DNA of 64,000 nucleotides from Symbiodinium natans (lineage: Eukaryota > Sar > Dinophyceae > Suessiales > Symbiodiniaceae): the NCBI GenBank assembly GCA_905221605.1, contig CAJNDS010002523.1, positions 2,161,609-2,225,608 of the forward strand, written 5' to 3'. Made by a program: the position numbers and the translations under genes. Below are positions 10,237-62,550 of this stretch, piece after piece. Within the stretch, counting starts at the first letter, position 1. Every line of letters begins with the position of its first letter. Below the pieces are notes generated by a model, which saw only the letters and a program-made list of their open reading frames with translations, did not search any database and was not told the DNA's origin.

Positions 10237-10248
10237 GCTCCGCTACCA
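10237..10248 (-). promoter_or_regulatory. primer-binding site for minus-strand DNA synthesis
   Basis: On the minus strand, TGGTAGCGGAGC directly abuts the 5' LTR. It is complementary to a tRNA 3' end ...GCUCCGCUACCA. Ty1 and many copia elements prime from initiator Met tRNA, whose acceptor end is similar (yeast TGGTAGCGCC). The assignment to initiator Met is inference, because no dinoflagellate tRNA is available here for comparison. Confidence 0.85.
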
Positions 10249-10395
10249 TGAACCAACTCACGATCTTTTGCAACTCGATTCTGAGCCTGAATGTCGCATC
10301 ACGATCTCATTTCAAGATGCTACTCCTACAAGGTCCAAAAGTCACATTCTGTTCAAGCAAAATATGGTTCACGGTACGGGAGAAAATGTTGATCA
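10249..10395 (-). repeat. 5' LTR of the copia element
   Basis: Right-hand copy of the 147-bp repeat. On the minus strand it lies upstream of all element ORFs, so it should contain the promoter. No TATA box is evident; dinoflagellate promoters commonly lack one. Confidence 0.95.
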
Positions 10396-13627: not shown

Positions 13628-14064
13628 CTAAACCATACCCTAAACCCTAAACCCTAAACCCAAAACCTTAAACCCTACACCCTAAACCCCAGACCCGAAA
13701 CCCTAAACCCTAAACCCTGAACCCTAAACCCTCAACCCTCAACCCTCTACCCTAAACCCGAACCCCAAACCCCAAACCCCAAACCCTAAAGCCGAAACCC
13801 CAAAACCTAAGCTCTAAACTCTCAACCCCTAACCCTAAACCCTATAGACCCTAAATCCCAAACCCCAAGCCCTCAACCCTAAATCCTAACCCCTAAACCC
13901 TAAAACCCTCAACCCTAAACCTAAAACCTCAACCCTAAACTCTGAACCCTGAATCCTGAACCCTAAACCCCCAACGCGGAACCCTACACCCTACACTCTA
14001 AACCCCAAATCCTAAGGCCGAGACCCCAAACCCTCAACCCTAAATCCTGGGCCCTGAACCTTAA
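13628..14064 (+). repeat. degenerate interstitial telomere-like array (CCCTAAA)
   Basis: Dozens of CCCTAAA, CCCCAAA, CCCTCAA and CCTGAAC variants run head to tail. CCCTAAA is the C-strand of the TTTAGGG telomere repeat used by plants and reported for dinoflagellates. High divergence shows an old interstitial array. Confidence 0.9.
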
Positions 14065-18835: not shown

Positions 18836-19709
18836 CAGCTCAGTTTGCAATGTGAACCCACTTTGCTCATTGCCTGAACGCGTCTGCTTGCCCACATCTG
18901 CAGACGTCAGGGCCTCCTTCAAGCCCAAAGACCCTAAATACGCCTCCCAAGGGGCCGCCCTAAACTTCAAAGCCGCCCATAAGCGAGTCAAAGTTAAGCC
19001 TTCAGATCAAGGCCTATTGCTTTTCAGGCGGACGCCTCTTCGCCTACGTTGTGTGCCATTTTGGCGCACGCTTTTCAGCCTACTGGTGGCAGAGGGTTGG
19101 AGCCCTGCTCCTGCGACTGCTGCACAATGTCCTAGCCCACGAGCCCCACAAAACCTGGCTCTACGTTGACGACCTACTGCTATGCCTCCTCAGACACAAG
19201 GCCCCGGAGCAGCTAGCCCGTGGCCTTCCTCACGGTCATTGGAGCACCAATCAGCTGGAGCTCGAATCTTGCCTCGACCTACTGATGTGGGCCACGTGCG
19301 TAAGTTCTCACTTGCGCTGTTTCGCCGCTCCGCTATATGCAGATTTGCACAGCCCGCCTGGGACCCAATATCCCATTCCACCTCGCAGCTGGTCACAGTT
19401 CCTGTGGTCCCAGTGCCGGGTCACAAAAGATGCCTCGTTCCTACAATTGCCAATCAAAGCCAGGGTAATCGAGGTCGAAGGCAAGCCGGTGTCGTCAAAA
19501 ACGGACATCTGGCCCATCCCAGCTGCAGATGGGTGCGCATCGCGGACCCAAACGCACAGGAAATCACTTTGCGCAACGACAGCAAAGCCGCCCTGCACTG
19601 GCTCGCCCAATGCTTTACCCACGAATTCCGCATGCCCCTAGCCCAGCCGCCTCTACTGCCATGTGTCTCAGCCGCGGACGCCATGGCAGATGGCTCTCCC
19701 AGACCCTAG
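18836..19709 (+). pseudogene. reverse transcriptase/RNase H fragment of a dinoflagellate retroelement
   Basis: Frame 1 (18852 to ~19022) carries NPLCSLPERVCLPTSADV and LNFKAAHKRVKV, which I align to RT motif A with Asn in place of the catalytic Asp. The frame then shifts to CHFGARFSAYWWQRVGALLL and TWLYVDDLLL, the YVDD catalytic motif. A second shift near 19180-19450 leads to an RNase-H-side region ending VSAADAMADG. These blocks match a reverse transcriptase family I recall as common in dinoflagellates. Two frameshifts and the lost Asp make it a pseudogene. Confidence 0.75.
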
Positions 19710-23051: not shown

Positions 23052-23692
23052 AGTTTTCCAGTCTTCGTCTGCAGGCTTTTGGGCGTGCAGTTTCCGAAGG
23101 AGACTTTGCTTCAGCCTCTAAAGACATGTCCCCTGCGCAGACTCCATGTCAAATGCACCTGCAGCCTTCCGCTGCCGCTGTCTCTCAATCGTGCCCTTTT
23201 TTGCCGTGGCATGCAATGCATGCCGGAGCTACATGTGTGAGCGGAAAGCTCAAAGCATAACCAAGGGTCCGCTGCGTATCGTTCTTCGAATAACTGGAGA
23301 AGATAGAGCTTTATTGTTCAAAGGAAAACAACATCGGAAATGTTGTAGTGAACTAAACATTTGCTTGTTGTTTTAGTGCCTTGCCTATTTGCACAACTTC
23401 AATTTCACCTTTTGGTCAGTTTCATGCTTGGTCATGTAGTGTTTTGTACTTACGACTAATTCACGGAACGTGATAATGTTGTCTTTTGATTTATAGTCGC
23501 TGCAACAGCGACGCAAAACTGCAAGTGGTTTCATGTTTTAACTGTGTTGACACGGAATGTTCCAAAAACGGAGCCACGTGTTGAGCGTGTTTTGTAAATC
23601 AATAAGACTGCATATACCCGTCGCAGCAGGACTTCTCAAGGGGCAGGATGCCCGGAAAGAGCTGCTAGATCATTGGTGTGAGGCCACTTTCA
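23052..23692. other. no gene recognised; presumed 5' end of the old DIRS-like element
   Basis: AT-richer sequence upstream of the recombinase ATG. No repeat of this stretch was found near 39.6-39.9 kb, so I could not define the terminal repeats of the old element. Confidence 0.4.
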
Positions 23693-24036
23693 ATGGCCAC
23701 CCCAACCGCTGAGACGCAGTCTTCGACGAGCGTAGCAGCTAAGGCAGCGTCGCATTGCCAGGCCTGGACTCGTGCAGTTAAGGCCCGCAGGGGAACGAGC
23801 TCGCGAGACCGTCAGCACGAGGCTTATCAGAAGGTTTTGACTTTACTGCAATCTTTCTCGAGTTTCTTTGACTTGTGCACTCTCATGGAGGATGATGCAG
23901 AGGATGGTCAGGACTCATTGCAGGCAGTTTTGGCCGGCAAATCCCCAGCCACTGTCTTGAAGCATGTTGGGCCGATTAGAACATTTTGTGAGTGGTTGGT
24001 GAAGTCAGGGAACCTTCCTCCTTTCCCGGAAAAGGC
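23693..24036 (+). pseudogene. tyrosine recombinase of the old DIRS-like element, N-terminal part
   Basis: ATG at 23693. The frame encodes a Ser/Thr/Ala-rich start and then a helical core-binding-like region with AGKSPATVLKHVGPIRTFCEW and NLPPFPEKA. It stops making sense exactly at 24036, where repeat A1 of the inserted element begins. The frame resumes at 33642 (GCC GTC TGG ...), continuing in phase into PRTAASTLDTCLRAIKWSFH. The gene was therefore cut by the 9.6-kb insertion. In DIRS-like elements this enzyme integrates the circular DNA product. Confidence 0.75.
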
Positions 24037-24162
24037 GGTTCATGTGTTTACTCATGTCTGTTTACTGTTGTGAAAGATCACCGTACTTTGTTGCTTTTGG
24101 TTCAAGCCACACACCAAATCATGCAGCTTGCATTACATCGCTGGGTAGCTTCGCTTTTCGAT
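24036..24162 (+). repeat. split direct repeat A1 (left end of the element)
   Basis: 127 bp starting CGGTTCATGTG, identical to 32873-32999. The first C is shared with the target and may not belong to the element. Confidence 0.93.
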
Positions 24163-25277
24163 GATCGTATTAGTATTGCTTTTCTCACTAGCTTTGTCTA
24201 CAGGCCTTGTAAGCTACGGATTTGGCACTAGGCCTCGTGCACGGCAGCTGCGATCAGCTGCCAGATGGAGCAGGCCTTCAAGGTGGCCTCGCCTGTCAAT
24301 GCATCCTCCAGTGATGCCAGCACTAGCAGCTTGAGTTTCTTGCAAAGAGAGCACCTTGCTCACGGACGTGCACTGTGTTCCCACCTGTCGGCACGTGTTG
24401 AGCGCCCCAGGCAACACTGCTTCGCATCTTTCATGCTTGGAAGACGGTTAGGCCATGAGGGCGCCTTACGCCTTTCCAGCCATTCAGTGCATATGTCTTC
24501 AGCGGGGTGCTTGGAAGCTCCTTTTTCTGGCGTACCTGCTCAGGACCCGGGCTCCCTCATAGCAGGCTTTGCTCCTGTTGAAGAAGTCTTTCTATAACAT
24601 TCTGCGGGGTTTTTCGGCTGACGCGTGCCCCATGGTGACTTGCTCCATGAACTTTGCAGTTACATGCTGCGCAGTGCGAAAGCCCGCTCATCAGCCAGCT
24701 GCTTGCCCTATTGTGCACATGACACACTCACCCGCAATTCCTTGATTGCTTGATTACTGCTGCATTGGTTCTGGCGATTCCAGCTCAGGGTGTTTGCTTT
24801 GCACACCTTTTACAACTCGCGGCCATGGCCGAACAGGCCCGAAGCTGCGCTTGAGCTTGCTGCGATGCGAGTATGCGAGCTAACAGCGTCGACGGCAGCA
24901 CAAGGATTCCGTTTGGCCTACTTCTGCAGGGCACTGCCCTGGTTTAGCAATCCACACTTGGCTAGGCATATGCCGTTTTATGTTGCGCTTTTGCTAGGGA
25001 CCTGCCTCGGTCTGTGCTTTGTCCTTGGTGCACAACTGCAGGAGCTTGGCGCATCTCCTCACATCAGAGCTTTCGACATTTTGGCCTTTCCTTGGCAGGC
25101 AGGGACCTTGGAGTAATGATATCCGCCTTTTGCTTTGTCTGCCTTTCTGCGTTGGAGCATAGTCGCATGCAGTTTGTCTTTGTGGCCCGCTGCTTCCTCT
25201 CAAGAGGTCGCCCACTTAGATCTTGCTTTCTAACGTTATTGTATACTCTTTTTCTTTTCGGAATCCCCGTTGGGTTA
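24163..25277. other. element leader, no gene recognised
   Basis: Open frames are short and have no motif. T/C-rich sequence typical of this element. Confidence 0.4.
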
Positions 25278-25992
25278 TGCCGGGGCACAAACGTCCAGCT
25301 GCGAAACCCCTTGCTTCAATTTTGAGACGGGGCCGCTTTGCTGGGTTGCCTACGCCCAAGCCCCGCATGCGGGACGCCAGCTCTGAGACCGAGGAGGTTC
25401 CGTCCCCGCCGGGCGGCCCCCCCCCCCTACGGGGGACAGCACTTCAGTCAGATCCAAGGCGGGATCTGTTTCGTCTACACCCTCGTCCAGAACTGCTTTG
25501 GCTTTGCGCCGAGGAATGGAGAGTCTTCGAGCCAGGTCGACAGATGGTGGGCCTCCGTCAGGTGCCACGCCCCGTCCATCTTCCAGCTGCGGCGGTACCT
25601 CAGACATTCCTTCTGGCCCACCTGGTTTTTCCATTGCGCTGTCACACCCCGCGGCGTCCACGCCGGGAGCTGTCACTGGCTTAGCTACATCTGCACTAAG
25701 CGCTCCTGGCTCTGCCGGACCATCTGGCCCTCCGCCCCCACGACCGGCTGCTGTTACTTTGCCTTTCATAAACGTTGATGGCTTTGCTACCGTACAATTG
25801 CCTTTTGGCGTGTACGCGGTCCCTCACCCTTCAACTCCGACCCTTCCATCGGCTACGGCTTCTTTCATGGGTCTTGCATCGCCTCCAGCATTGCCGAAGA
25901 GCGCTGGGCCACCTCCCACGTCAGCATCTCCTGGGTCTCCGACCACACCCGCTGTGCTGCAGGATGAATCCGCTGACGATTATCCCAACTGA
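25278..25992 (+). CDS. element ORF a: Pro/Ser-rich disordered protein, frame broken at C11
   Basis: Starts ATG (MPGHKRPAAKPLASILRRGR) with a basic N-terminus, then an acidic and Pro-rich segment up to a run of 11 C (25417-25427). Beyond it a different plus frame is open to 25992 and reads as a Ser/Thr/Pro/Gly-rich chain ending DESADDYPN. Together ~238 residues, gag-like in composition but with no zinc knuckle. The C-run may be a sequencing or assembly length error, a mutation, or a slippage site. The element context supports a real ORF; the function is unknown. Confidence 0.45.
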
Positions 25993-26039
25993 TATCTCGG
26001 CAGTTAGGCAGCATTTGGCTTTTAGTGGCCCCTCTTCCG

Positions 26040-26330
26040 CTTCGCTTTCTCTGCGTTGGCAGGGGTAGTACATAGGATGTTTTTTGGCTTTGTCTCGCCG
26101 CATTTTCCCTCCTGAGCTTTAAGCTTCTTAGGGGCGATTGGCATCGGAGCTTGCCAGCCAAAAAAAAAATATCAGAGCTTCAGTGCTTCTTCTGAGCTTC
26201 CTTCGCTTTCTGCATGCAGCGCTTCTTTTCATGCATGCTCCCCTGCCCAGGTCTGGCCCGGGACGCCCTTCACATTTTTCCGGGTGCACTTCTCGGAGTG
26301 CTTCCTTTGTCTTTTCTTTGATGGGCTGGT
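26040..26330 (+). repeat. internal diverged repeat R1 downstream of ORF a
   Basis: Resembles 28745-29030: GTACATAG.. TGTCTCGCCGCATTTTCCC, GAGCTTTA, GGGCGATTGGCATCGGAGC and CCCAGGTCTGGC occur in the same order and spacing in both. R1 also has an A9 run at about 26161. Confidence 0.7.
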
Positions 26331-27974
26331 AACTTGGCTTTAGGGTTTGTTCGTGCGTCAAGTGCTGCTCTTTTCTTTCCCTTTCATGTGTGGCATGAAC
26401 ATGCATGGCCCACGTACACCCGTGTTGTGCGTGTTTGCCAGTGTTGCACTCGGGCTCGCACAGGTCCCATGGCCGTCCCGGCCTCGTTTTGCTTCGTCAT
26501 GCTGTGCGCGGGTGTACCACTGCAGGCTTCGGCGTTTGTGTCCTTGCTTTAATGCTTTCCAGGTTCGGTGTTTCCGAGCTTTGGTATATCTGCTCTTTGC
26601 ATTTCAATGTTCTGCCTCTCAGAGTGGGCTCCCTTTGCCTTGCTTCAGGTCCCAGGGGGTTCTGGGGGTTCATGCCCCTTCGGCTCTGCGCTCAGAGCGT
26701 CTGCTTGCCGGGCATACCTTCGGGGCCTTCTGGACTTGACGAGCTTCCTTGCCATTTCATGCCTGGTGCCCTCACGCATATATCATAAGTTCATTTCTCG
26801 CTTTGTCGCTGCTTCCGATCTTTGGAACCGATAGATCCCTCCTGTGCTTATTTGCAGCTTGAGGCCCTTGATGATTGGCCTCTGTCAGTTGCTGGCCTCG
26901 CCACGCAGCGCTTTTACCTTCCTGGCATCATCTCCGCGCCCGTCCTGAACTTAAAAGGGGGGGGTGCCTTCCGGCCTCGGTGGGCCTTTTCTTCGGGCGT
27001 CGCACATTACTCAGGCAAAGCCTGCGTTTCAGAGTTTCGCGACCCTCTACGGCTTTGGTGGGTTGCATCTCTGCGGCTTTGGTTTTCTCCCTCTGGGCAT
27101 CAGAATCCCAACAGTGCGATACTTAATCGAGCCGCTCAGGTCTGCCTCGCGTCGCTCTTGGCTTGGTCTCTGAAGGGGTTCCACCAGACTTTCTCTTCAC
27201 GTTCAGCGCCCAGTTTTGTCGAATACCGTTCAATCCTTCGGGGTCCTGCAGTTATCCCGGAATTTGCAGTCACGTCCCCGTATTGCATTTTGCGGGTCTC
27301 ACTCCAGCTCATGCATTAAGCAGGACAGCTTCCCCTTTTGCAAGGCTTCGCATGGCTCCAGCTACAAGGAGACCCTCTATCGAGAGGCCTTTTGTCAATT
27401 TAACCTTGCGTTCTTTGTTGTGGACATGCTTTTCATGTGCATGCCAACAGCCTCAACCAGCCCCGCATCCGTTCCCTTTTGGTCATTCCTTTTGGGCAAT
27501 TTCAGCTTTACCCTTTTAGTCGATGCAGGCCGGGTTTGGCAGTGGCCTCTGCCTTCGAATTCGGTCCATCTTTTTGCCGCGAGTCTGAGCAAAAGGAGTC
27601 TCGACTTCGGGTAGTCTTGAATCACTCTGCCCTTGGCTCTGTCTGCTTTGCATTTTTAGGCGGTGCTTAAATCGGAGCTTCAGTGCTTACTCGCATCGAC
27701 ACAGCTTTCGGCTCCTACCTCCTGGGAGGGGTAGATTGGGATTGCAGAGCTTTTTCCCTGGGTCTCGCACTCAGAGATTCAGAACAGCCGGTGAACGTCG
27801 TGTGTAGTAACTACACAGCATTTCAGAGCTTCGTTCTTTCGGCACTCAGAGCTTGTGCGTCACCATTTCGTTGCTTTACCTCAGAGCTTTTGGGCTTTGC
27901 TTTAGCCCTCTCATTGTTGATACGGAGTTGTCTTTTGCTTCGGTGGCCTTGCCCACCCTCGCTTATCGCTCGCA

Positions 27975-28562
27975 ATGGCCAATACTGACATGTTCTTGGG
28001 CCTTGCAGAAGCTGATGTGAACAAGGCGGTATCCTGGCTGGAAGACGCGCGCCACATGCCGGCGACGAGCGGTTTCTCACCAACGCAATGGCTGTGGCAC
28101 TGGCTTTCGTCTACGCCAGCCTTTGCGCCTTTGTCTGAGGCTGCTGAGAAGATGGATACCGTCTTTGGCTTTACCTCTGGCGATTGGGCTTTTCATTGGG
28201 TCGAAGAGATGGAAAAGGCCTCCCTGAACCCGGGCCTAGCTGCTTCGCCAGTCAGTCCGGCGCAGCCTGCTTTGGACAGCAATTGGCCGCATTTTCCTAA
28301 TGGCCACTGCTCCCTTGGACTGGCCCCTGCTGATCTTCTCCGTGCACATGCATGGTGGGAAGAGGCCGCTTCTTTCGACGGTGCCATGGGATGGAAGAAG
28401 GACGACTGGCTTCGCTTTTGGATGGAGCAGGATTCGGCCTTTGAGACTTTGCTTCAGCGCGCCAAGGAGGCTGGCCATGGCTGGAACATTGGCCAATGGC
28501 TTTGGCTCTGGGTGTCGCGGGTCCCAACGCTTATCCGCTCAGCCAGCACAATGAGACAATGA
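27975..28562 (+). CDS. element ORF b: 195-aa protein with two Trp-rich repeats
   Basis: Clean ATG-to-TGA frame. Two ~75-residue halves can be aligned by eye: LGLAEADVNKAVSWLEDA with QWLWHWL, and LGLAPADLLRAHAWWEEA with DWLRFWM, each followed by an AF..L...A helix and a second W...W(V) helix. This gives four W-x(2-3)-W helices in all. It is probably an all-alpha repeat protein. No known family is recalled. Its place in the middle of a young split-repeat element suggests a structural or RNA/DNA-binding role, but that is speculation. It is the best-preserved ORF in the element. Confidence 0.6.
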   Translation: MANTDMFLGLAEADVNKAVSWLEDARHMPATSGFSPTQWLWHWLSSTPAFAPLSEAAEKMDTVFGFTSGDWAFHWVEEMEKASLNPGLAASPVSPAQPALDSNWPHFPNGHCSLGLAPADLLRAHAWWEEAASFDGAMGWKKDDWLRFWMEQDSAFETLLQRAKEAGHGWNIGQWLWLWVSRVPTLIRSASTMRQ

Positions 28563-28744
28563 TTGTCCATCAAATTTACTGCCGCTCCACGTGCCAAGAC
28601 TGCGGTGCTGGCCATTGCGGGGTCGTTCTTACACGCGAGGATTTGCCTCATCGGCACCGCTGTGGCATTTGTTACAAAGCTTTTAGGAGGGCACAAGGGC
28701 AACCCTGAGAAAGCCCGTACATCAGCTTTGGCTCTTATTTTGCC

Positions 28745-29030
28745 CCCCTTTGCTTTGGCTTTGCCCGTTTTGACGGGCACAGTACATAGAGTGTTGTTGG
28801 CCTTATCTCGCCGCATTTTCCCCCAGCGAGCTTTAGGCTGCCTGTGGGCGATTGGCATCGGAGCGTGCCGATTGAAATCAGGCTTGCGTGCGGTTTCGGA
28901 GCTTCGTTCATTTTTCGCTGTCGGGTACTTTCCCTCAGACATGCTCTCGCACCCAGGTCTGGCTGCGGATGCTTCTCACGTTTTTTTTCCAGGCGCACCT
29001 CTCAGAATATTTTTGTCTTTTCTTTGGCCC
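28745..29030 (+). repeat. internal diverged repeat R2 downstream of ORF b
   Basis: Second copy of the module seen after ORF a. Both follow an ORF stop within ~200 bp, so they may be duplicated 3'-flanking or RNA-processing sequence. Confidence 0.7.
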
Positions 29031-30404
29031 AGCGCTATCGTCCCTACACTGGTCTTTCGGCCCCTGGTTCACGTCACGTGCTTCTATCTGTACTGCGCAT
29101 GTTTGGAGTGCCTCACTCGTGTCTACACAGCAGTGCAAGATCACAACCTGGGCTCGCGCCTTCCAGGTCCGTCCGCCCTGAGAGGTGTACGTTATCTTCG
29201 GGCCATCCGGGCCTCGCGCTAAGCTGGCCTTTGTTTCGCCAAATACATGGATGACATTCGGGGCAGCTTTTTCTTTCCATAATGGCGTTTTCCCTTTGCG
29301 GCGGCGCACGATCTTATCGTGCTCTTAGGGTCCCTTTCCCGAAGCTGCCCTCTCCCACTCCCAGCCCCCCTCCCTTTCCTTTTGGAGTTTTCGGCCTCGG
29401 CTTGCTGATGCTTTGATCCCAGCTTGTGGGGAGAGCAACATGGGGGGCCTTTTTCTCAGCATGGTCCCCGGGTCCGGACGTTTTGGAACCTTGGGCATCT
29501 TCCTGCCGCTGCCTTGTCACAGGAAGGTTGGACCAGTCAGTAGGCCTCGTGCTGGCTTCATTTCTTCCCAGCTGCATACCAGCCGGTTCGGAATCCAGAT
29601 GCCGGGTCGGTTTCGTGTGTGATCGGACCACCTAGACTTTGCCTTTCCCGCCCTGGGAGGCTTCGACCTGGCAAGTGCGTGCCTCAACGAGTCTTGCCCT
29701 CTTTGGGCGGGGTTTTCTTCTCCTTGAGTCTGCAACTCGACTCCAGCTTGTCTGCAAAGCTTCCTTTCTTGAGCGTCAGATTCGCATCGGTCTGCATACT
29801 CTACCGTAATTGAAGAGGTTCCTTACGGGTGGTTTTAGGCTTTTTGGTACAATTCGAGGCCGTCGGCCCCCTTGGCTCTGGGATTCCTTTTTCTTCCAGG
29901 CGTCCATGACTCAGAACGCCAGTGCATGTCAGCGTCGCTGAATCCTTGCAGATCCTTCGTGCACTGCGCATTGGTATGTCATCTTTCAGAAGCTGTCACC
30001 GCTGGGCACTCATGTCAGCCCTAGCTTTCGGGCCCAGAGGCCTCAGCTGGTAAGGTTAGCTTTCCTTTCAGGGTCATTTCTTTTCTTCCACAGGTCTCGG
30101 CCCCTCGCCACTTCTCACCGCCACCGAGACGGCTTGTCCTTGGAGCTGCTCTCACTGCGTCCATGGCTCAGAGCGACTCTGCCAGTTTTTCGCCCTTTAC
30201 ACCCCAGACGGTCAGTGCGTCGCATTGGGTCGTTTGCTTACCAAGCTTTCGTTCTCCCCAACCTTCGGACTCTGCCCCACTGCAGCGCCTATGAGACGTC
30301 ACTCGCGTTTGTGCTTTCTCCTCGAGCCTTTGGGGTCCCGATTCTCCCAGGGACTTTTTGGCGTTCCTGCCGAAGGGGCTAAGCAACTTTGTCTTGCCTT
30401 TGCC
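29031..30404. other. element interior between ORFs b and c, no gene recognised
   Basis: T/C-rich stretches with repeated CAGAGCTT and TTTCGG words. Frames are short or hydrophobic by composition. Confidence 0.4.
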
Positions 30405-30713
30405 ATGATGTCGTCCCAGGATGAGCCCATGTCCTACGCGCGCTTCTATCAGATCCGCGATGCTGCGGATGGGCCGCTTTGGACTGCTTTGACCAAGGAT
30501 CGGTCCTTTGCGTCTGCCAGGCAAATACTAGCGCACAACTGGAAGGCGCGCTGGAGTGTCATCCGCCTCGAGAACGACCTAGTCAAAACCCTCTTGGACG
30601 CTTTGGCACAGCATCCTGAAGAGCGGGCTCTTTTTGTCCACCACTTGGCCGAAATGTCCCCGGAGTCTGAGCAAGAGGAGCTTCCTCCCGCCGAAGCACC
30701 AGTCAATTCGTGA
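30405..30713 (+). CDS. element ORF c: 102-aa acidic helical protein
   Basis: ATG at 30405 (the frame is open further upstream) to a TGA at 30711. Mixed charged and aromatic residues (SYARFYQIRDAADGPLW, KARWSVIRLENDLVKTLLDA) and a Glu/Pro-rich tail suggest a folded helical core with a disordered end. No recognised domain. It lies in the same orientation as the other element ORFs, ~1.8 kb downstream of ORF b, with no coding signal that I can see between them. Confidence 0.45.
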   Translation: MMSSQDEPMSYARFYQIRDAADGPLWTALTKDRSFASARQILAHNWKARWSVIRLENDLVKTLLDALAQHPEERALFVHHLAEMSPESEQEELPPAEAPVNS

Positions 30714-32144
30714 GGGTGACCCTCGGGCCCTCTGGGCCTTTCTTTCAAGTGTGCTTTGTTACGCAGGCTTTCAAACAGCCATTGTACTTACACACGCTTT
30801 GTTTTGGCTGTCTCGACCGTTCCCTGACACTCTGTGCTTCGGCTCCTGGGCTAGCCTTACTAGGCTTACACCGTGAGATTACGCAGTCGACATCTGACCT
30901 TTCAGTAAGCCTCTGGCTTTAAAGATCCCTCCTTGTGATCTTCTTTTTGGTTTTTGTTGAGCAGGTCTCACATGCTCAGGCAGTCGGCCGGCTTTGGTGC
31001 CTGCGCGGAAAAATGCAAGCAGCAGCGTAGGTATTATTCATTCAGGCTATCGCCACCTGGCTCTCCCCTTTGATAGCGTACCATCCGCCATCTTCATGTT
31101 TTGCTCCCTCTCTGCTTTGGTTCGCTCAGGCCTTGGCCGCTTTCGGCCACCAAAGCTCCGATCGCGTCTCCCCCCTTTCTCGCTTCTGCAGGCACGGCAT
31201 TTGCCCGAAACTCCATAAAGCCCGGTTGACCCTAAGTCGCTACCTTGAGCCTTCGGCGTTCGCCCGCTTACAGGGACGCACTCCGACCCGTAAATACACC
31301 CTGGGCTGTGCTTTGCTCTAGGCGTTTGCTTTACTGGCTGTTAGTATGGGGCCTTGCCCCCGCCTTTTCCTGTCAAAGAGTCAGGCTTGCTTCCTAATTC
31401 TGCCAGTACAGAGCGTTTTATAAGCCTTCAACCGTGTCACACGGTCATCAGTCTTTGGCTCGTCGCAGTTTGGTCTTTCAGCCCTGCGCGCCAGGACTTC
31501 ACAGTCCGTGGGGGCCAGTGCACGTTCGGCGAGGAGGATGGCTCCATGCTTCTTTTGCTGTTCACTGTGAGTATCCGGCACAGCACTTACCCCAGCCCGC
31601 GGCCTTTCTGTAGCGGGCATTACAGTGCTTATCTAGGGCGGTCCCTTCTGTCTGGGGAAACTCGCACTGCTGGCACGACAGAATTCCTGCGTGCGACTTC
31701 TCCCGCCCCTTTTTCTTGGGCACTGTCCCTAAGCCTAGGTGTCCCACATGCCGGGTTTTCCGGGGGGTAGGATAGGATCCTTCGCACTGGTTTAGGGGCT
31801 TCTGCCTGCGACCATGTCAGGAGACTTGCGCCGCTCAGTGGTTCGGATCCGCCGCATTGTCTTTTGGAGTAAATGAGCGGATGCAATGCTTTTCTCCTAG
31901 TACTTTCCTACTTTTGGGAAGGCAGTCAGCCATTTCTCGTGCTTTGGAGCGGTCTGGCGGGCAGCGGCAGAGCCACAGCGCATTCTTTTCCCCCGCGCGG
32001 CCCCCGGCCCTTGTGGCTCTCAGGGAGCCTTAGAGCACTTGCGTGTTACTTGCATTTGAACATGGAACACTTTGCATATCCTTTACTATACAATCACTTT
32101 GAGAGGGTTTCAACAGCTGGTTTACCTGCCCGCGGGTCGGGCAC
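30714..32144. other. element interior between ORFs c and d, no gene recognised
   Basis: Same T/C-rich character; no convincing frame or repeat. Confidence 0.4.
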
Positions 32145-32444
32145 ATGGACCACTCCGACGAGGTGGCTTTTCTGAGGGAGGAAGTCTCTCGTCTCAGGCA
32201 TCAAGTTGCCATTCTGCAAGGGGACCTGTCGGGCGCTCATCTGACTGCAGAAGGGCTTCTCGCGCGTGTCCTCGCTCTGGAGCAATCGTCCAGCGGGCAC
32301 AGCGTCCGGCTGTCTGACATGGAGGCTGACCTCGAGCTTTGCAGCACTCGTCTGGCAGAGGTCCAGGCCTCCCTTTGTGCAGTCATCCAAGGCATTGGAT
32401 CTGTCCTTTGCTCTGTGCTCCGACAGTTGGGAAATCGACCCTAG
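32145..32444 (+). CDS. element ORF d: 99-aa coiled-coil protein
   Basis: ATG-to-stop frame with clear heptad spacing (DEVAFLREEVSRLRHQVAIL and two more Leu-rich stretches to about residue 90). Probably a dimer or trimer coiled coil. It is the last ORF before B1. Coiled coils occur in gag-like and nucleic-acid-chaperone proteins of other retroelements, but no specific homology is claimed. Confidence 0.5.
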   Translation: MDHSDEVAFLREEVSRLRHQVAILQGDLSGAHLTAEGLLARVLALEQSSSGHSVRLSDMEADLELCSTRLAEVQASLCAVIQGIGSVLCSVLRQLGNRP

Positions 32445-32685
32445 CCGTGACCTTCGCCTACCTCATCCGCGGAGGATCGGGTTGTGACACGCCCTTCTAC
32501 CAGACGACCGGCTTCTGTGGAGCTGTTTTGGTTTTGGCTCTGCATTTGGAGCTTTGATTTCACTGGAGCTGCGTTACAATACTCGGCTTGAGCCACCCAG
32601 AGACTGGGGGCATGCCTGGCACGTCTTCGCTCACTTTTAAAAATTGGGCTGTTCGATGCGAGCTTTGACTTTGCCAGTGTTAAAT

Positions 32686-32873
32686 TGGTGGTAAGATTTG
32701 TTGCCAGCTTTGCCAATAATTCGATTGCATGCTTTGTGCTTCGAACTCTGAGCTGCATTTCCGGCAAAGTCAAAAGGGAAGGAGCGAGAGCTTGTGGTAG
32801 GTGCTCACTTAGCCTGGACTTTCCCTAGGGCTTGGTAGTGGCTTTGGTAGTGTGGCTTGAACTAGCTGTGAAC
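32686..32873 (+). repeat. split direct repeat B1
   Basis: 188 bp from TGGTGGTAAGAT to GCTGTGAAC, repeated at 33453-33641 with one substitution and one extra T near the left edge. Confidence 0.93.
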
Positions 32874-32879
32874 GGTTCA
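32869..32879. promoter_or_regulatory. palindromic B1/A2 junction, candidate recombinase crossover site
   Basis: TGAAC G GTTCA is a perfect inverted repeat around one base, exactly where B1 ends and A2 begins. The two outer ends of the element (GGTTCA at left, TGAAC at right) are its halves. The role as a crossover core is inference. Confidence 0.6.
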
Positions 32880-32999
32880 TGTGTTTACTCATGTCTGTTT
32901 ACTGTTGTGAAAGATCACCGTACTTTGTTGCTTTTGGTTCAAGCCACACACCAAATCATGCAGCTTGCATTACATCGCTGGGTAGCTTCGCTTTTCGAT
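32873..32999 (+). repeat. split direct repeat A2
   Basis: Identical copy of A1, directly abutting B1. The join forms TGAAC-G-GTTCA (32869-32879). Confidence 0.93.
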
Positions 33000-33079
33000 C
33001 CCACCCGCCACTCCCATTATGAAGCTTCATTCCTTCATTTGGGACGGGTCTCGGGACCTTTGTACAGCCGGAGCTTGCT

Positions 33080-33310
33080 CATCTTGCACTCGTGTCACAT
33101 TGTCCTTGCTTTCTGCTTTGGGACATGTTCCCTACTCTGGCTCTCAGCCGGGTCATCCCAAAAGGGCCCCCGTCTTCTAAACGGCTGTGATAGCTCGCTG
33201 TGCAACCGTGTCGCAGTAGTGTTTTGTTTTCTGCTTTGGAACTTGTCCCATACTCGCGTGCTGTCAGCCGATTCAATCCTGAGGCGCACCCGTCCTCTAA
33301 ACGGCTGGAG
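33080..33310 (+). repeat. two tandem ~115-bp copies in the A2-B2 spacer
   Basis: Both copies carry TTTTCTGCTTTGG or TTTCTGCTTTGG, then a divergent middle, and end CTTCTAAACGGCTG or CCTCTAAACGGCTG. Confidence 0.8.
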
Positions 33311-33452
33311 CTAGCCTTGTTTCACGAGAATCCACGAGATCGCTTTTCGATCGCTTTTCCTGCCTTGGTTAAGGTCTCTTCTGTTTTGCTCCTGTGTTTT
33401 ATCGTCATGGCGCGTTCAGATTCTCTGCGTTGGCACAATTCATCTGCTTGCA

Positions 33453-33641
33453 TGGTGGTAAGATCTGTTTGCCAGCTTTGCCAATAATTCGATTGCATGC
33501 TTTGTGCTTCGAACTCTGAGCTGCATTTCCGGCAAAGTCAAAAGGGAAGGAGCGAGAGCTTGTGGTAGGTGCTCACTTAGCCTGGACTTTCCCTAGGGCT
33601 TGGTAGTGGCTTTGGTAGTGTGGCTTGAACTAGCTGTGAAC
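33453..33641 (+). repeat. split direct repeat B2 (right end of the element)
   Basis: Copy of B1 ending GCTGTGAAC. The next bases CGTCTGG are the resumed recombinase coding sequence. Confidence 0.93.
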
Positions 33642-34835
33642 CGTCTGGTCTTTTGTCAATTGTGTCTTGAAGATGCCCCGCACAGCTGCATCAACTTTGG
33701 ATACGTGCCTCAGGGCTATCAAGTGGAGTTTTCACTCCCTAGGATTACGTGTGCGCCTTGAGGTTTTTCAGAGTGCACGTGTCAACGGGCTGGTAGCCAA
33801 AAGCTTTGGCCAACAAGAGTCCGTGGGACCCGGCTCCTCCTCTGCAGGTGCATGAAGTGTTGCAACTTCACGCAATCGCTCAGGACGAGGGCGTCTCTCT
33901 TATTGATAGATGTGGCGCAGTGCATTTTTTGGCCATGCTTTATGGTAGGGCCAGATCCTCCGATGTTCGATGTATCCAACTTTTGATCATTGACAAGAGT
34001 GGCTCGGATTGGAGTCACGGTTTCATTGAACTAGGTACCCTCCACCATAAAACTTCCCGGCTTGATGCCCAGCGGCGACGAATTCTTCCATTGGTGATTC
34101 CGGGAATTGGCATAGCCAAAGTCCCGTGGACAGCTGCTGCTGGAGCTAAGGGCTGAGGTTGGTTTGCCGAATGATGGCATTGATGTTCCTTTCCTGCCGG
34201 CGCCACGACCCGATGGTAGTTGGTCCTCTGACCCCTTGTCATCTAGCGAAGTGACTCGCTGGCTTCGATTTCTGCTCCCTCGTCCCGATTCGGAGAAGCC
34301 TCTGTCTAGTCACTCTCTCAAGGTGACTACTCTGGTGTGGTGCTCTAAGTTCGGCATGCTTCGGGAAACTAAGCGTGTTCTTGGTCATCACGCTGACGCT
34401 GCAACAGGATCGGACGCGGTGTACGGTCGGGAGCTGCAGAGCGCCGCGCTGCGAGAGTACATTATTATCCTGGAAGCAATTGCTTCAGGAAAATTCTTCC
34501 CTGACCAAACCAGGAGCAGCCATTTTGCTCAAGGATGGAGCCGTCAGACAATCATGCAATCAGCTGCGGTCACACCTGGCGCCGATGAGACCACTCTGGT
34601 GGACGCGGCGGATGATCAGGATGATGCCTGGGCTGTTGTCTCGGATGTGTCGGATTCTGAAGAGGACGAATCGGAGGACCCCTCGTACTGGGCTCACCCC
34701 ACGCGTCAGGTTCTGCACAGAACCACACTAGGGTCTGCTATGTTTTTGTGCGGCCGAGCTTTTGGAGACCACTACCGCCGCGTCCCTATGGTTAGGGCAC
34801 ATGCTTACCCTCAGTGCTCTAAGTGTTTCTCTTAG
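33642..34835 (+). pseudogene. tyrosine recombinase of the old DIRS-like element, catalytic part
   Basis: Continues the gene interrupted at 24036. The first frame runs to ~33825, a second (about 33825-34130) contains YGRARSSDVR with the first catalytic Arg, and a third (from ~34130 to 34835) contains SSHSLKVTTLVWC, LGHHADAATGSDAVYGRE and an acidic tail. The catalytic set reads R...H-x-x-K...H...Y, with Lys where most tyrosine recombinases have the second Arg; I recall the same Lys in related dinoflagellate sequences. Two frameshifts and the insertion make it inactive. It lies upstream of the gag, which is unusual for DIRS-like elements. Confidence 0.8.
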
Positions 34836-34974
34836 AGCCAGCCTTTTTGAAGCGCTGAGCATGAGCTCCGCATGGAAAATAGCGGCGAGAGTTTGAAATT
34901 ATGTAGTTTCATTGACAGAGGAGTGATGTCCCTGCCTGCGAGTTTTGTTCGGCTCATGTCAGCTTGCAGTAGCC

Positions 34975-36235
34975 ATGACGAGTTCCGTGGATTCGGCCCC
35001 TTATTTCCTCCAGCGAGCAGAGGAAATCTTGCTCACCAAGCGAGTCACTGATGCGCTGAATGCAAAAGTGGTCAAAACCTTGGCTCAGTTAGCCTTCTGC
35101 CTGGGTCAGCCGGGTCAGCTCCTGGCCCAGACCGACTTCGATGCATGGAGTGACTCAGTTTTGACGGGCCTTACGGTAGGCGAGAAGGCATCGTTGAGAC
35201 GCCTGATTCTTGAAGCCCAGACGATGCTGGTGGCCTCCCTCAAGGATATGGCAGAGCCATCTGAAGGTGCTTCGCCCAAGAAGGTGGGACTCGCTGAGCG
35301 CAATGCACGCATGGACCAGTTGCGCACTCAGCTCTCGGGGATTTCCTTGACTGGCCAGTTAGAGCCCAGCCATGCGCTGTTGGACATGACAGTTCAGCAG
35401 TGGGAGAACCGATGTCTTAAGTACATTGGCCCGGAAAAATGCCATAGCCGCGAAGAGGAAGTTCAGAACCTGAAGCCATTGACTACCAGCCTTTCTCTTG
35501 AAGGGGGCAAACTCAAGGTTACGGAGTCTTCTGGTATGGAGGATCGTGACATAGAGGGCTCTCTGCAGGTGTTGAACGCCCTTCGGCGGCGCGGCGTTGC
35601 ATACGCCTTTGCCCGGTTGATTACGTTTCCTTGCTTTTCAAGTACCTCACGAAACCAGCTCAGCAAGGTTATCGCAAGGTTTCCCTGCGTCAGATTCTAC
35701 GAGCAGACAAGTTGGCTTTCGCGAAGATGTCGGAGGCAGGAGAGGATGTTCGTGCAGACGCTTCGGGGACTTTGCCCTTGGATGCCAGGATTTCCTCGGT
35801 GTTGCAGGATTACGATTTGATTGTTGCTCTTCTCCCTTTGGGGGATCTGGAAAGCGGAGGCAAGCTTCGATTGCAGCCATCCGTACGAGAATGCTCCAAA
35901 CAAAGGAAAGCAGGGCAAGGGAAGACCTTTTTCGAGCCCTAGTTGCTTTGAGTCATGGCCCAGTAAGGGTAAGCCCTTGCCGAAAGGCAAGGAGAACGCT
36001 GGAAAAGGGAAAGGTTACGGGGCCGGTAAGTCGGAATGGCTACCTGAGGGCCTACGTTACCAGGGAGCATCCGCTTGGAACCAGAAAGGCAACAAAGTCT
36101 GCTATGGATTCAATCTCGGCGGGTGTAATGACGCCAATTGTCAGAGAGGTGATCACGGTTGCGTCATCTACAAATGTGGTGGTGACCACCCGGTCACCAA
36201 GTGTCCGCTGAAGCCTAAGAAGCTGGTGATCCTAG
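34975..36235 (+). pseudogene. Gag-like protein of the old DIRS-like element
   Basis: ATG at 34975. The helical capsid-like region begins SSVDSAPYFLQRAEEILLTK and contains LDMTVQQWENRCLKYIGPEK. The frame shifts near 35630 (continuing YLTKPAQQGYRKVSLRQIL) and shifts back near 35880. A Lys/Gly-rich basic region follows, then a Cys/His cluster (VCYGFNLGGCNDANCQRGDHG, C-x-C-G-G-D-H and a final TKC), a zinc-finger-like nucleic-acid-binding module as in other dinoflagellate gags. Two compensating indels indicate decay. Confidence 0.75.
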
Positions 36236-36519
36236 CCTTGATGCGACTTCGCTGGCCGATGGTTCCTCAGGATGAACCCGTTAGGGGCGTCATCTCTGCT
36301 CCGGCCCAGGAGGTCGATAGGCAGGCCTTGCCTTCAGGCGCGGGATTGGACCCCGCATCTGAGGATAGGGTTACCGGCGGTATCGATTTTGGTTTCGAAT
36401 TTCCTCCTTTGATGGCTTCGGCGCTGTCAGCTACAACGCTGCCATTTTTCCAGACCGGTGATGAGGCATCTTCCCGGGACGCGCAGTGTTCTTCGGCTGC
36501 AGCGCCGCAGCGAGTTTTC

Positions 36520-37050
36520 TCGGATGCGTCGCACGGGGGTCCTGCCCGCGCGATCCTTCAATGCTTTGCAGGGCAAGCCCGGGTAGCTTCAGCTCTGATT
36601 ACGCAGGGTTATTTTGCTTATGGAGTGGATCGTGTTAAACACAAATCTGCTATGGCACCTGTTTTGCAAATGGACCTGTCCTCTCGGACATCTTGTGATT
36701 CTATTCTTACTTGGTTGGACAAACAGAAGATTGCGGGGGTACTGATTTGCATACCGAAGCATGCCATCTCCGCGGCATTTGTTTTCGCGGTTATCAACGG
36801 ATGCCTCGATAGAGACTTGCCGCTAGTGGTAGAGGGCTCTTGCAAGTCCCCCTTTTGGACGAATATGAGCCAACTTCCAGACGCTCAGCAAGCGCCCCAT
36901 TGGATTGAAGTCGAGTGGGGGTGTTGGATTCCTACGAGTCAGCAGCGGAGTTTTGTGATGTCGAACCTCCCAGAAATTACCACAGTTAGGCGTGAAGGGC
37001 GAGAACCGGCTGGGAAATCGACAGTACCTGAAGTATCCTCAGCGGGATAA
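36520..37050 (+). pseudogene. methyltransferase-like domain fused downstream of gag
   Basis: In frame with the zinc cluster: AILQCFAGQARVASALITQG then FAYGVDRVKHKS, an LQMDLSS segment and GVLICIPKHAISAAF. This is the layout of an SAM-dependent methyltransferase fold (glycine-containing first loop, acidic residue after strand 2, DL loop, catalytic loop). The catalytic PP[CN]-type tetrapeptide expected after strand 4 is replaced by CIPKHA, so activity is doubtful. Several DIRS-like elements carry a methyltransferase domain, though usually elsewhere in the element. The domain call is by motif reading only. Confidence 0.5.
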
Positions 37051-37283
37051 CCTCGAGGTTTTGCCACTGCCTTGGCTGAGGTTTTTGCGGCTGGCGTCAC
37101 AGCGAGGAAGCTTCTGTGTAGCAACCCTTCTTTGGCCAATAAGGCCCTCCGAGTGTCGGCCATGCACCAGCCTCGCGGGCATTTGAATGAGGTCATGCCC
37201 GAATGGAAGGTGGTCGTCTATGTGCTGCTGCCTCGCGCGGTAACTGAGGACCCCTTCTCAGGGTGCAAACGTCTTAAGCAGGA
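37051..37283 (+). pseudogene. coding link between methyltransferase and reverse transcriptase, frameshifted
   Basis: A frame from 37072 (MAEVFAAGVTARKLLCSNPS..) reads like continued polyprotein and overlaps the reverse transcriptase ORF start, so at least one frameshift lies around 37050 and another near 37300. Confidence 0.4.
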
Positions 37284-38864
37284 GTGGCCACCCTGCCGGC
37301 AGATTCCCAGCTTTTGTCGCGGACTCAGACAGGGGGGCACTTGAGCCCGCAACTTCAGCAGGAAATGCAGAAACTGGATGGCGCCTCAGTGCTGAGAGTG
37401 GGGATTCCTTGGGATCCGATTGAATTTATTGGGAAGGCAGCAAAGCTAGGCCACCCTTATCATCAACTCTCTAAATGTAACCAACCCTTAGAGAAGTTGA
37501 TTGAGCAGCTTGTACATAGACCAGGCTCGGTGAGATCACAGAGAAAGCTTTGCCTCGAGAGATGGGCTAGAAGAGCCAAAGAACTGGAGCCAGAGGAAGC
37601 CCAGTTGAAGGCTGGCATGTCTGCTCATCGGGGAAAGATCCTCGGACCAAAACGTATCCTCCTCTTTCAAGAAATGCTTAAAGACATTCAATATGACGAT
37701 ATGGACGTGGTGCAGGAGCTCATTCATGGAGCCACGCTGACGGGCCCTATCCCGGTGACGGGAGTGTTGGATGCGAAGCTTAAGCCAGCCAGGATGGATA
37801 TCGAGCAACTTGTGGACATGTCCGAGCAGGTGTGTGAACAGATTTTCGCCAGGACAACATCCAGTGGTGATAAAGACATGGACACACTGTTGTGGGAGAA
37901 AACTTTGGAAGAGGTTGAGAAGGGTCACCTCACAGGCCCTTTCGACATTAGCCACCTCCCGAAAGGTTGTTTAGTGAGTTCCCGATTCCCTCTGCTGCAG
38001 GGAGGCAAACTCCGGCCTATAGACAACTACTCGTCCAGCCTCATCAATGACACTGTCACTGTGTCTGAGAAACCTGTCACACATTCAATTGATGAGATCG
38101 CACTTCTTATTACCAAGCTGTCGAAAGCAGCTAGGAAGAAAGGCCTGTTGGAGCTCTTCGGGAAGACTGCCGATCTCAGAAGCGCCTATCGGCAGTTGGC
38201 CATCTCGGATGAAGGTTTGAGATTCTCGTACTTGGCAGTGTACGACCCTGCCGAGGGGAAGCCCAAGCTGTTCCAGCAACTGGCAGTGCCTTTTGGTGCC
38301 ACGAAAGCAGTGTATTTCTTTTTGAGGGTTGCGAGGGCACTTTGGACGATCCTGGTTAAAGGAGCTCGGATCCCTACGACGAGTTACTTTGACGATTTTG
38401 TTCTCCTCGCATTGAGTGGTGACAGGAGTTCATGTTCGGACACCTTCGACGAGGTCATGAAACATCTAGGCTGGAAGTTGTCATCAGACAAGGCTACCGA
38501 GTGGAGTACGAACTTCGAAGCGTTAGGCGTTTTGTTCGAGCTGGATTAGACAGGGACAGGGGTCTTGAAGGTCAGGAACACAGAACGAAGGCGCCGCGAA
38601 CTGGTAGCCGCCATCAGGGGTTTCTTGGAGAATGGTTCAATGAGCCAGAAGGAAGCTTTACAGCTGAGGGGCCGGTTGCAGTTTGCCCAAGCCCAATTCT
38701 TTGGCAGATTGGGCAGGAGGTGTTTGGTTGAAATCGCGAGACACGCCTATGGTGGTAGACGGAAAATTCCGGGATACACCAAAGACCTTTTGGAAGATTT
38801 TAGCAAATTCTTGGACGCTGCTCAACCCAGGTTGGTGGGACAGGTGTCTGCAGATCTTTCATGA
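37284..38864 (+). pseudogene. DIRS-like reverse transcriptase with start of RNase H, one in-frame stop
   Basis: Open to TAG at 38547-38549 (421 codons) and then open again in the same frame to 38864. The RT motifs are intact: KLRPIDNYSSSLINDTV, motif A ADLRSAYRQLAI, motif B QLAVPFGATKAVYFFLRV and motif C TSYFDDFVLLA. The stop sits just after ALGVLFELD, followed by TGTGVLKV.. and RRRRELVAAIRGFL, the thumb/connection region. A single stop in an otherwise clean ORF may be a recent mutation or, less likely, readthrough. Motif style (FDD, GVLF) fits the DIRS/Ngaro side of reverse transcriptases. Confidence 0.8.
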
Positions 38865-47254: not shown

Positions 47255-47585
47255 CCAAACCAAAACCCTAAACCTAAGCTCCAGACCCTGAAAGGAACGC
47301 AACCCTCATCGGAACCCTGTAAATCCTAAGCCTTAAATCCATCTACACCCTATATAAACCAAGAACCCCAAGCCTGCAGTGCCACTGCGAAGGCTGCAGC
47401 TACGGCACGGCGGCAGCGGCTCATCGACGTGGCGTGCTGGGGCTTCTAGGATTCCTTATCCCAAACCCTCAACCCTAAACCGCAACTAAACCTTAAGCCC
47501 CTAAACCCTAAACCCTAAACCCTAAACCCTAAACCCTAAACCCTAAACCCTAAACCCTAAATCCTAAAACCCTAACCCCCTAAAA
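47255..47585 (+). repeat. interstitial telomere array (CCCTAAA), partly perfect
   Basis: Degenerate copies to ~47490, then about nine perfect CCCTAAA units at about 47498-47561. A run of 13 C follows at 47594-47606. Confidence 0.9.
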
Positions 47586-47689
47586 CTTAAACACCCCCCC
47601 CCCCCCGGAGCGCAATATAAGGGTGCTCGAGAGCAGGCTTTCGCTTGGAGTGCTGGGCTCGAGCTTCGTTTCGCGCGTTTAACAGCGAT

Positions 47690-54930: not shown

Positions 54931-55068
54931 TACAGAGCCGTTGAGCTGATTTGAAGCGGGTTCAAATGATTGCGGGGGGATTGGTCTACCTCTTTAGCTA
55001 TTGGCGTTGCCTCTAAACGAGGTGTGGACGTTCATTGCTTCTTTCGAAGGTCAACTCAGAGTGCTGAA

Positions 55069-55165
55069 CCCTAAACCCTCAACCCTCAACCCTCAACCCT
55101 CAACCCTAAACCCTAAACCCTGAACCCTAAACCCTAACCCCTAAACCCTAAACCCCCAACCCCCC
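55069..55165 (+). repeat. interstitial telomere array (CCCTAAA)
   Basis: About 13 units of CCCTAAA/CCCTCAA ending in a C-rich stretch. Confidence 0.9.
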
Positions 55166-62545: not shown

Positions 62546-62550
62546 GATTA

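Follow-up and report, generated by a model that had tools for sequence, protein, structure and literature searches.

The locus analyzed here raises the question of how an element without recognised copying or integration enzymes could have entered the tyrosine recombinase (YR) gene of another retroelement in the genome of Symbiodinium natans. The element (9.6 kb, positions 24,037–33,641) lies in a window of 64,000 nucleotides, by which the whole analyzed stretch of DNA is meant. Repeat alignment revealed the order A1–body–B1/A2–455 bp–B2 (Table 1), which corresponds to the split direct repeats of the PAT/Ngaro type of the DIRS order and confirms the layout given in a preliminary description of this DNA. 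A1 and A2 do not differ over 126 bp (127 bp including a C shared by chance in front of A1), B1 and B2 are identical in 185 of 187 alignment columns and B1 abuts A2 exactly, without a gap. An Rfam search of the window gave no match.

Table 1. Features of the split-direct-repeat element and of the host element that it interrupts (positions in the window).
Feature	Position	Strand	Evidence
Interrupted host gene, left part (YR of another YR retroelement)	23669..24036	+	ORF reading, join-spanning copies
A1, left terminal repeat, starts GGTTCATG	24037..24162	+	Repeat alignment, end comparison among copies
ORF0, altered to 110 aa in window copy; six other copies have a conserved form of 72 aa	24265..24597	+	pN/pS 0.08 (two pairs of copies)
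ORF1, proline-rich; two frames in window copy, break at C-run near 25420	25280..25992	+	pN/pS 0.28 after C-run
Segment of ~90 bp 3' of ORF1, recurring 3' of ORF2	26066..26156	+	Repeat comparison
ORF2, tryptophan-rich; C-terminus of window copy altered by short deletion	27975..28562	+	pN/pS 0.16; common to autonomous-type element
ORF2 C-terminal CxxC..HxH..CxxC segment, other frame in window copy	28517..28705	+	Comparison with copies
90-bp segment, second copy, 3' of ORF2	28780..28869	+	Repeat comparison
ORF3, 101 aa, conserved	30408..30713	+	pN/pS 0.15
ORF4, 99 aa, conserved; coiled coil from weak Pfam similarity only	32145..32444	+	pN/pS 0.12
B1, internal copy of right terminal repeat	32688..32873	+	Repeat alignment
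A2, internal copy of left terminal repeat, adjoins B1	32874..32999	+	Repeat alignment
A2–B2 spacer	33000..33454	+	Found in 12/12 family copies with right end read
B2, right terminal repeat, ends GTGAAC	33455..33641	+	Repeat alignment, end comparison
Interrupted host YR, right part; motifs HSLK, GHH, Y; frame breaks near 33797 and 34116	33642..34835	+	ORFs, motif reading
Host element gag-like ORFs with Cys/His cluster	34927..37050	+	Authors' reading; no Pfam family
Host element reverse transcriptase	37278..38549	+	RVT_1 E 4.3e-5, below curated cut-off

The repeats had been proposed to mark real element ends, and a search for other copies showed that every end read coincides. The B–A–spacer–B end is common to 18 loci (12 read, 6 by position only), and two solo A–spacer–B units were found besides these; 15 family places were read wholly or partly, the remaining ones being positions only. 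The sequence GGTTCATG starts all 12 A repeats (the window included, one being the internal A2 at C602) and GTGAAC terminates all 13 B2 ends read, that of C1814 being placed a few bases further on owing to a deletion in B2. The A2–B2 spacer, described earlier as 453 bp long and as a departure from the usual layout, is present, but as a feature of the family and not as an oddity of this locus. Within a copy, A1 and A2 match at 120/125 to 127/127 positions (8 copies) and the B1–B2 similarity is 98.9% or more in 10 of 12 copies, the exceptions being C602 and C1814, which have a shortened B. Compared with the window, other copies diverge by as much as ~10% for A and ~18% for B. Comparison of nine copies revealed three subfamilies, all without reverse transcriptase (RT) and YR. 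Two family copies contain nested elements, and an internally deleted form of 4.5 kb (C1998) was also found.

The joined flanks of the window element read AAGGC/CGT, and this join is spanned at 39 places in the same genome besides the window's own (46 candidates, 40 scored). In all ten places read base by base the empty host site is contiguous, without a gap; therefore, the insertion neither gained nor lost bases. The exact insertion into the YR gene without target duplication and the possibility of reading both the empty and the filled site, as claimed previously, were thereby verified. The C1079 copy is located inside a copia gene, an uninterrupted copy of which lies in the window at 2742–2952, and its join is likewise gapless, while a solo unit (C2166) lies inside a minisatellite and is contiguous when compared with the neighbouring units. 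No consistent target-site duplication was found among the 10 places with both flanks: C319 shows a 2-bp AG flank match within a GA repeat, and the window shows a 1-bp C match, yet both Cs belong to the empty site. A target-site motif was rejected, the flanks of the 10 fully flanked copies being unrelated by eye.

The earlier assignment of the element itself to PAT/Ngaro was not upheld, since its body contains no recognisable YR, RT or RNase H, and the surrounding YR is that of the host element. None of these enzymes was recognised by Pfam on four body ORFs, and no body ORF reached the Pfam cut-off. At the DNA level, the body resembled neither the YR nor the RT part of C1790, the partner element described below, and a frame-by-frame selection scan revealed no further long conserved frame beyond five ORFs. 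On these three grounds a hidden RT or YR in the body was rejected. The DNA methylase families, which would correspond to the DNMT domain in Pol of SymbioDIRS-Dnmt3, were not found by Pfam among the body ORFs scanned. Integration by a YR via a circle, as suggested earlier, would be expected on account of the layout and of the related autonomous-type element.

The body holds five small ORFs of 72, about 237, 266, 101 and 99 aa (ORF0–ORF4), which were absent from the preliminary description. They are kept under strong purifying selection: the pN/pS values (Table 1) span three subfamilies and were obtained from disjoint pairs of copies with shared inner branches, two pairs only for ORF0 and the region after the C-run only for ORF1. 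No internal stop was found in any of 27 ORF4 matches; weak ORF4 matches elsewhere reach 34–36%. Single copies often have at least one damaged ORF, and the window copy has three (ORF0, ORF1 and ORF2). In the protein database, only seven relatives were found for each of ORF2 and ORF3, one being from Symbiodinium natans. A sixth ORF may be present beside the five scored. The 90-bp segment scored above 200 of 200 shuffles after ORF1 and ORF2 and in the partner element, where a related stretch lies 3' of ORF2. A regulatory segment behind every ORF was rejected, the 90-bp segment not exceeding all shuffles after ORF0, ORF3 and ORF4.

An element of autonomous type with related ends and with enzymes, such as a SIRE-like non-autonomous element would have as a partner, was found in the same genome. 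Two of its copies, C1790 and C1902, were read as DNA, C1790 alone in full; both are damaged, with the RT of C1790 in broken frames and an internal deletion in C1902. The ends of C1790 are homologous to those of the window family (88% identity in A, 79% in B), and it carries YR, gag-like and RT ORFs plus its own ORF2 (82% aa identity). At 14 mostly decayed loci of this element ORF2 lies 292–485 bp downstream of YR, with stops inside the YR match at 8 of them. Near-identical repeats within copies are common to the window family and the partner, and the sense strand is A-poor in both (AT skew -0.29 in the window element, -0.21 in the partner). The partner YR shows the residue pattern R, K, HSxK, GHH, Y; searches with Pfam and with PDB sequence profiles missed it, and it was seen through its predicted fold. 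A 711-aa protein (P0008) is a 100% match to the YR of C1790, and XerH, Cre, Flp and phage integrases made up the first 37 of 125 matches to its AlphaFold model, three at E up to 0.001; a XerH/Cre/Flp fold is thus predicted. No DNA methylase family was recognised in C1790 by Pfam; separately, a possible C5-methyltransferase-like stretch was noted there by our own motif reading. In a six-frame profile search that covered C1790, C1902 and family II, as well as a portion of the element nested in C1169 and the remainder of the window, the sole match was to ORF2, in C1790. An origin of ORF1, ORF3 and ORF4 from the partner was rejected on this basis, and ORF0 had no match in C1790 or C1902.

Since no enzymes were recognised and only five small conserved genes are present, the element probably moves on the machinery of a partner element. 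We consider it likely that it is a multi-copy non-autonomous split-direct-repeat satellite of the DIRS/PAT/Ngaro kind, mobilised in trans by the partner and keeping its own protein set. Its RNA would be copied by the partner's RT, with the internal B1A2 junction as the template that renews both ends, and the partner's YR would then integrate the resulting circle at sites that have little specificity. A role of the five small proteins might be to help the element's own RNA to compete for this machinery, through assembly of an RNP or particle or through a link to the YR complex by ORF2. End renewal is favoured by repeats that are almost identical within a copy and different between copies, while partner ends that are 79–88% identical and no closer count against trans-mobilisation. 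Strong selection on five ORFs also counts against it, since a mere hitchhiker would not usually show this, and so do the damage in both partner copies read, the stops in 8 of the 14 YR matches, the broken ORFs of many family copies and the failure of sequence profiles to find the YR. By analogy with virus satellites, which retain genes with which to exploit a helper, we tentatively propose, at somewhat below even chances, a satellite retroelement lineage without RT or YR, which has kept ends of the partner type and ORF2, carries four further genes and has been preserved by selection in several subfamilies with recent activity.

Mutual dependence of the five-ORF element and the YR/RT element, like two genome segments, would agree with the related ends, the common ORF2, the near-identical repeats in both and the five selected ORFs, but C1790 possesses an ORF2 of its own besides gag-like, YR and RT ORFs and gives no sign of needing ORF0, ORF1, ORF3 or ORF4, which makes such a bipartite system unlikely. 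Rather less probable is an internally deleted autonomous element with functionless leftovers. Internally deleted forms are known in both groups (C1998 and C1902) and damaged ORFs are frequent among the family copies; however, the profiles of ORF1, ORF3 and ORF4 found nothing in C1790, in C1902, in family II or elsewhere in the window, ORF0 had no match in either partner copy, three subfamilies lack RT and YR, and purifying selection on all five ORFs, with pN/pS far below 1, weakens this explanation. The failure of body ORFs to reach the Pfam cut-off and the few relatives of ORF2 and ORF3 could be taken to hide an unrecognised enzyme in a self-sufficient element, but the ORFs are small for an RT or YR and both the ends and the marks of the life cycle agree with those of the YR partner, so that we regard this as very improbable. 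An assembly artefact or segmental duplication is scarcely credible: the evidence comes from a single assembly, but the same ends occur at unrelated sites, empty sites of three kinds were read and two copies contain nested elements.

The preferred reading, a trans-mobilised satellite, was compared with known systems, using sections of the cited papers. The layout, the lack of target duplication and the solo A–B units are already published. SymbioDIRS-Dnmt3 and other Symbiodinium DIRS-like elements have the A-coding-B-A-B layout with YR in a separate ORF (PMC5890265). The likeness extends to the organism group and to C1790, with its YR, gag-like and RT ORFs and its possible C5-methyltransferase-like stretch; the window element differs in having no recognised YR, Pol or DNMT, and its five small ORFs are not mentioned in the sections of PMC5890265 used. 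SIRE, the short non-autonomous form of VIPER in Trypanosoma cruzi, corresponds to an A2-B2 unit (PMC6681497, PMC12278014) of about 185 + 30 + 220 bp, in which the stretch of ~30 bp is internal, as is the spacer of the window family (PMC6681497); VIPER makes no target duplication (PMC6681497, PMC12278014). It is likewise non-autonomous and resembles the two solo A–spacer–B units, but is a short unit compared with 9.6 kb and five conserved ORFs. In Cafeteria burkhardae, Ngaro elements share the layout A1-[ORFs]-B1A2B2, the insertion in other mobile DNA and the solo AB repeats; they encode putative Gag, RT/RH and a YR recognised as PF00589 (PMC8547959). The window element differs from them in having no recognisable enzymes of this kind, and here Pfam recognises neither the host nor the partner YR.

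Non-autonomous retroelements are usually gene-poor or carry remnants. BARE-2 and zeon are LTR retrotransposons of the non-autonomous type in which an ORF is retained and which exploit the RT and integrase of a partner; in elements of this kind the integrase is of the DDE type, the target is duplicated and the retained ORF is gag. They are similar to the window element as parasites of partner enzymes with some coding capacity and differ in belonging to another retrotransposon order. A literature search found no non-autonomous split-direct-repeat member with such a gene set. To our knowledge, no split-direct-repeat element of satellite design with its own five-protein kit has been reported earlier, and this one would be the first. 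Five small genes under selection without recognised copying or integration enzymes make it testable in one genome what a hitchhiker needs beyond partner-type ends. Exact empty sites, nested elements and solo units are all available in this genome, together with near-identical repeats by which insertions can be dated; with such material in one genome, the little-studied cycle of YR retrotransposons therefore becomes readable from sequence.

The repeats that the preliminary description had claimed for the element at 24037–33641 are real and lie where it put them, and the element's ends recur in other copies, with the start of A identical in 12 of 12 and the end of B2 in 13 of 13.

Repeats of the window element and its conserved body ORFs (pN/pS and neutral-binomial P from disjoint copy pairs; the P values are optimistic because these pairs have inner branches in common)
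Feature	Position	Length	Remarks	pN/pS	P
A1	24037-24162		left terminal repeat; identical to A2		
B1	32688-32873		internal; same as B2 at 185/187 columns		
A2	32874-32999		internal; adjoins B1 directly		
Spacer, A2 to B2		455 bp			
B2	33455-33641		right terminal repeat		
ORF0		72 aa	length from six other copies; altered in window copy	0.08	1.7e-16
ORF1		~237 aa	split over two frames in window copy	0.28	8.8e-24
ORF2		266 aa	tryptophan-rich, C-terminal Cys/His cluster; C-terminus altered in window copy	0.16	3.5e-54
ORF3		101 aa		0.15	2.0e-22
ORF4		99 aa	weak coiled-coil similarity	0.12	1.0e-20

The genome (759 Mb, 2543 contigs) was searched with both repeats, which gave 40 matches for A (best 40 of 84 candidates scored) and 41 for B (best 40 of 92). 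At least 18 loci of this family (family I) have a B pair. The two B repeats lie 624–834 bp apart at 16 of them and 9.9 kb apart in contig C602, because another element is nested between them; C1814 was counted once its shortened B2 had been read. Of the 18 right ends, 12 were read (the window, C2178, C2098, C1998, C1079, C602, C2365, C2038, C1814, C319, C1913 and C1169) and six were placed from positions alone (C2342, C1935, C258, C857, C212 and C2026). The DNA of 20 genome stretches and five more was examined, and seven copies of 4.5–9.7 kb were extracted entire. In eight copies, A1 and A2 agree at between 120/125 (C319) and 127/127 positions. The identity of B1 to B2 is 98.9% or more in 10 of 12 copies; the other two, C602 and C1814, have a shortened B. 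Compared with the window element, other copies reach a divergence of ~10% in A and 18% in B. Given this near-identity within copies that differ from one another, each round of movement seems to renew the repeats, and several of the insertions are recent. Solo A-spacer-B units were found at two places (C2166 and C2365:186755), and C1935, by positions only, has three B and two A repeats alternating, i.e., a tandem A-spacer-B unit. Solo and tandem units fit recombination between repeats, a process proposed for Cafeteria Ngaro elements (PMC8547959). In C1935 (G000:C1935:157322-158107), ORF2 is on the strand opposite to the repeats of its element, which suggests that an internal segment was inverted.

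The interrupted gene is part of another YR (tyrosine recombinase) retroelement with the order YR, gag-like ORFs, RT, and the insertion into it is exact. Uninterrupted forms, for which the preliminary description had proposed a search, were found using joined flanks: at least 39 places besides the window's span the join (best 40 of 46 candidates), and ten empty sites read AAGG[C/T]CGT[C/T]TGG, gap-free at the join. The C1079 copy lies in a copia gene, an uninterrupted copy of which is present in the window at 2742-2952; its flanks align at 91% with one 11-base gap elsewhere and zero gap at the join. The solo unit of C2166 lies inside a minisatellite, which stays contiguous.

Other elements were seen alongside. 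The one nested in C602 (stretches L018, L029 and L017) belongs to a second YR-retroelement family (family II), with the ends A' GTATCTTGTG and B' ...AATATAAAC and a 1266-aa ORF with RT (RVT_1 E 1.3e-8) and, by reading of the sequence, putative dioxygenase-like and methyltransferase-like stretches. It sits five bases inside the outer B1/A2 junction of the family I copy, and no bases were gained or lost, as judged against the outer B2. On the minus strand of C1169 (L030), a further nested element has an ORF of 941 aa, RT/RNase H-like by reading of the sequence, and two 321-bp repeats, the 100% identity of which indicates a very recent insertion. The window itself contains 158-bp direct repeats (1842-1999 and 10238-10395, 97% alike) that flank copia-like minus-strand ORFs and look like the LTRs of a copia element, and a degenerate stretch with YVDDLLL upstream of the interrupted retroelement (18964-19709), which looks like a DIRS-type RT. 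Telomere-like interstitial CCCTAAA arrays occur on both strands (13637-14048, 47463-47592, 55067-55155, 59778-59989, 62550-62888 and 63545-63620).

No RT, RNase H or YR was recognisable in the body in the Pfam analysis of four body ORFs. When six aligned copies were scanned frame by frame, the forward windows with a low ratio and few stops coincided with the five ORFs, which are under selection. The reverse-strand mirror frames of the ORFs had low scores too, some being stop-free, and B1/A2 and the spacer had a few low-scoring but stop-rich windows. The pN/pS was higher among close pairs (up to 0.73, with few changes); three subfamilies were distinguished among nine copies compared. ORF4 had no internal stop in any of 27 genome matches, 17 of which were 80% or more identical across 81 or more residues, 16 of these within the 18 family loci. 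A repeated frame of 117–121 aa with 34% identity to ORF4 (G000 C2380, C908, C1850, C2263, C345 and C606) may be a distant relative or reflect coiled-coil similarity. Individual copies often have damaged ORFs: in C2038, ORF4 and part of ORF3 are missing and ORF1 contains a stop, the right half of the body is missing in C1998, ORF2 is fragmented in C319, C1814, C258 and C2098, and ORF1 in C602 and ORF3 in C1079 are partially inverted. Seven relatives of ORF2 were found in the protein database, one of them from Symbiodinium natans; the genome is probably that of a Symbiodinium.

The partner of family I is an element of autonomous type, represented by C1790 and C1902, which were reached through two weak B matches. 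The C1790 element (9.8 kb) has the layout of family I, with A 88% and B 79% identical. It contains a YR frame of 803 aa, an ORF2 with 82% aa identity, a gag-like ORF containing a Cys/His cluster, a possible C5-methyltransferase-like stretch and RT in broken frames, for which the RVT_1 match (E 4.4e-5) does not reach the cut-off. Three blocks are clearly homologous between C1790 and the window element (A1, 1.5 kb including ORF2, and the right end). A further match of ~300 bp, after ORF1, comprises a 90-bp repeat and its surroundings. At the DNA level, the body does not resemble the partner's YR or RT part. C1902 is internally deleted and without ORF2. The sense strand is A-poor: the AT skew of the window element is -0.29, that of the partner and of family II -0.21, and that of adjacent DNA ~0.

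In a genome search with the C1790 YR (best 63 of 1766 candidates scored), ORF2 lay 292–485 bp downstream of a YR match, in the same orientation, at no fewer than 14 loci: C1790, C2460, C2184, C2285, C117, C62, C380, C118, C597, C311, C2350, C1945, C2387 and C2021. In C1945 the first piece of ORF2 matches weakly, C311 and C2350 seem to be duplicates, and eight of the 14 have stops inside the YR match. YR and ORF2 are therefore a constant pair; that gag and RT come after them was read in C1790 only. Among the same 63 matches, YR of at least 70% was without an ORF2 match in C2433, C1902, C73 and C555. Just the end of ORF2 is left in C2362, and the pair in C1832 is a distant one (YR 48%, ORF2 33–45%). 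In the ORF2 tree (11 proteins, midpoint root), the eight family I copies cluster with moderate support (89/87).

Sequence profile searches gave no tyrosine recombinase assignment for the partner YR. Its alignments show R, K, HSxK, GHH and Y, which we take to be the catalytic pattern of these enzymes. An AlphaFold model (22 sequences) of P0008, a 711-aa protein placed at C1790 with 100% identity by the genome search, has a confident core, although long disordered parts bring the mean pLDDT of the whole model down to 62.7. In Foldseek, ranks 1–37 of 125 matches were all tyrosine recombinases, including XerH (E 1.5e-4), Cre, Flp and phage integrases; three matches reached E 0.001, and TM-scores were low (target-normalised up to 0.48).

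The A-coding-B-A-B layout has been published for Symbiodinium (PMC5890265), and a classification of YR elements is given in PMC4157794; in VIPER/SIRE, A2-B2 units can be short non-autonomous forms (PMC6681497, PMC12278014). No gene-bearing non-autonomous split-direct-repeat element was found in the literature searched, mostly outside subscription papers. The RNA of the element would be copied by the partner RT and the ends renewed at the internal B1A2, after which a circle would be formed and inserted by the partner YR. Because ORF2 is a partner gene, our guess is that the role of the five proteins is most probably to give the RNA of their own element an advantage within a particle or complex shared with the partner.
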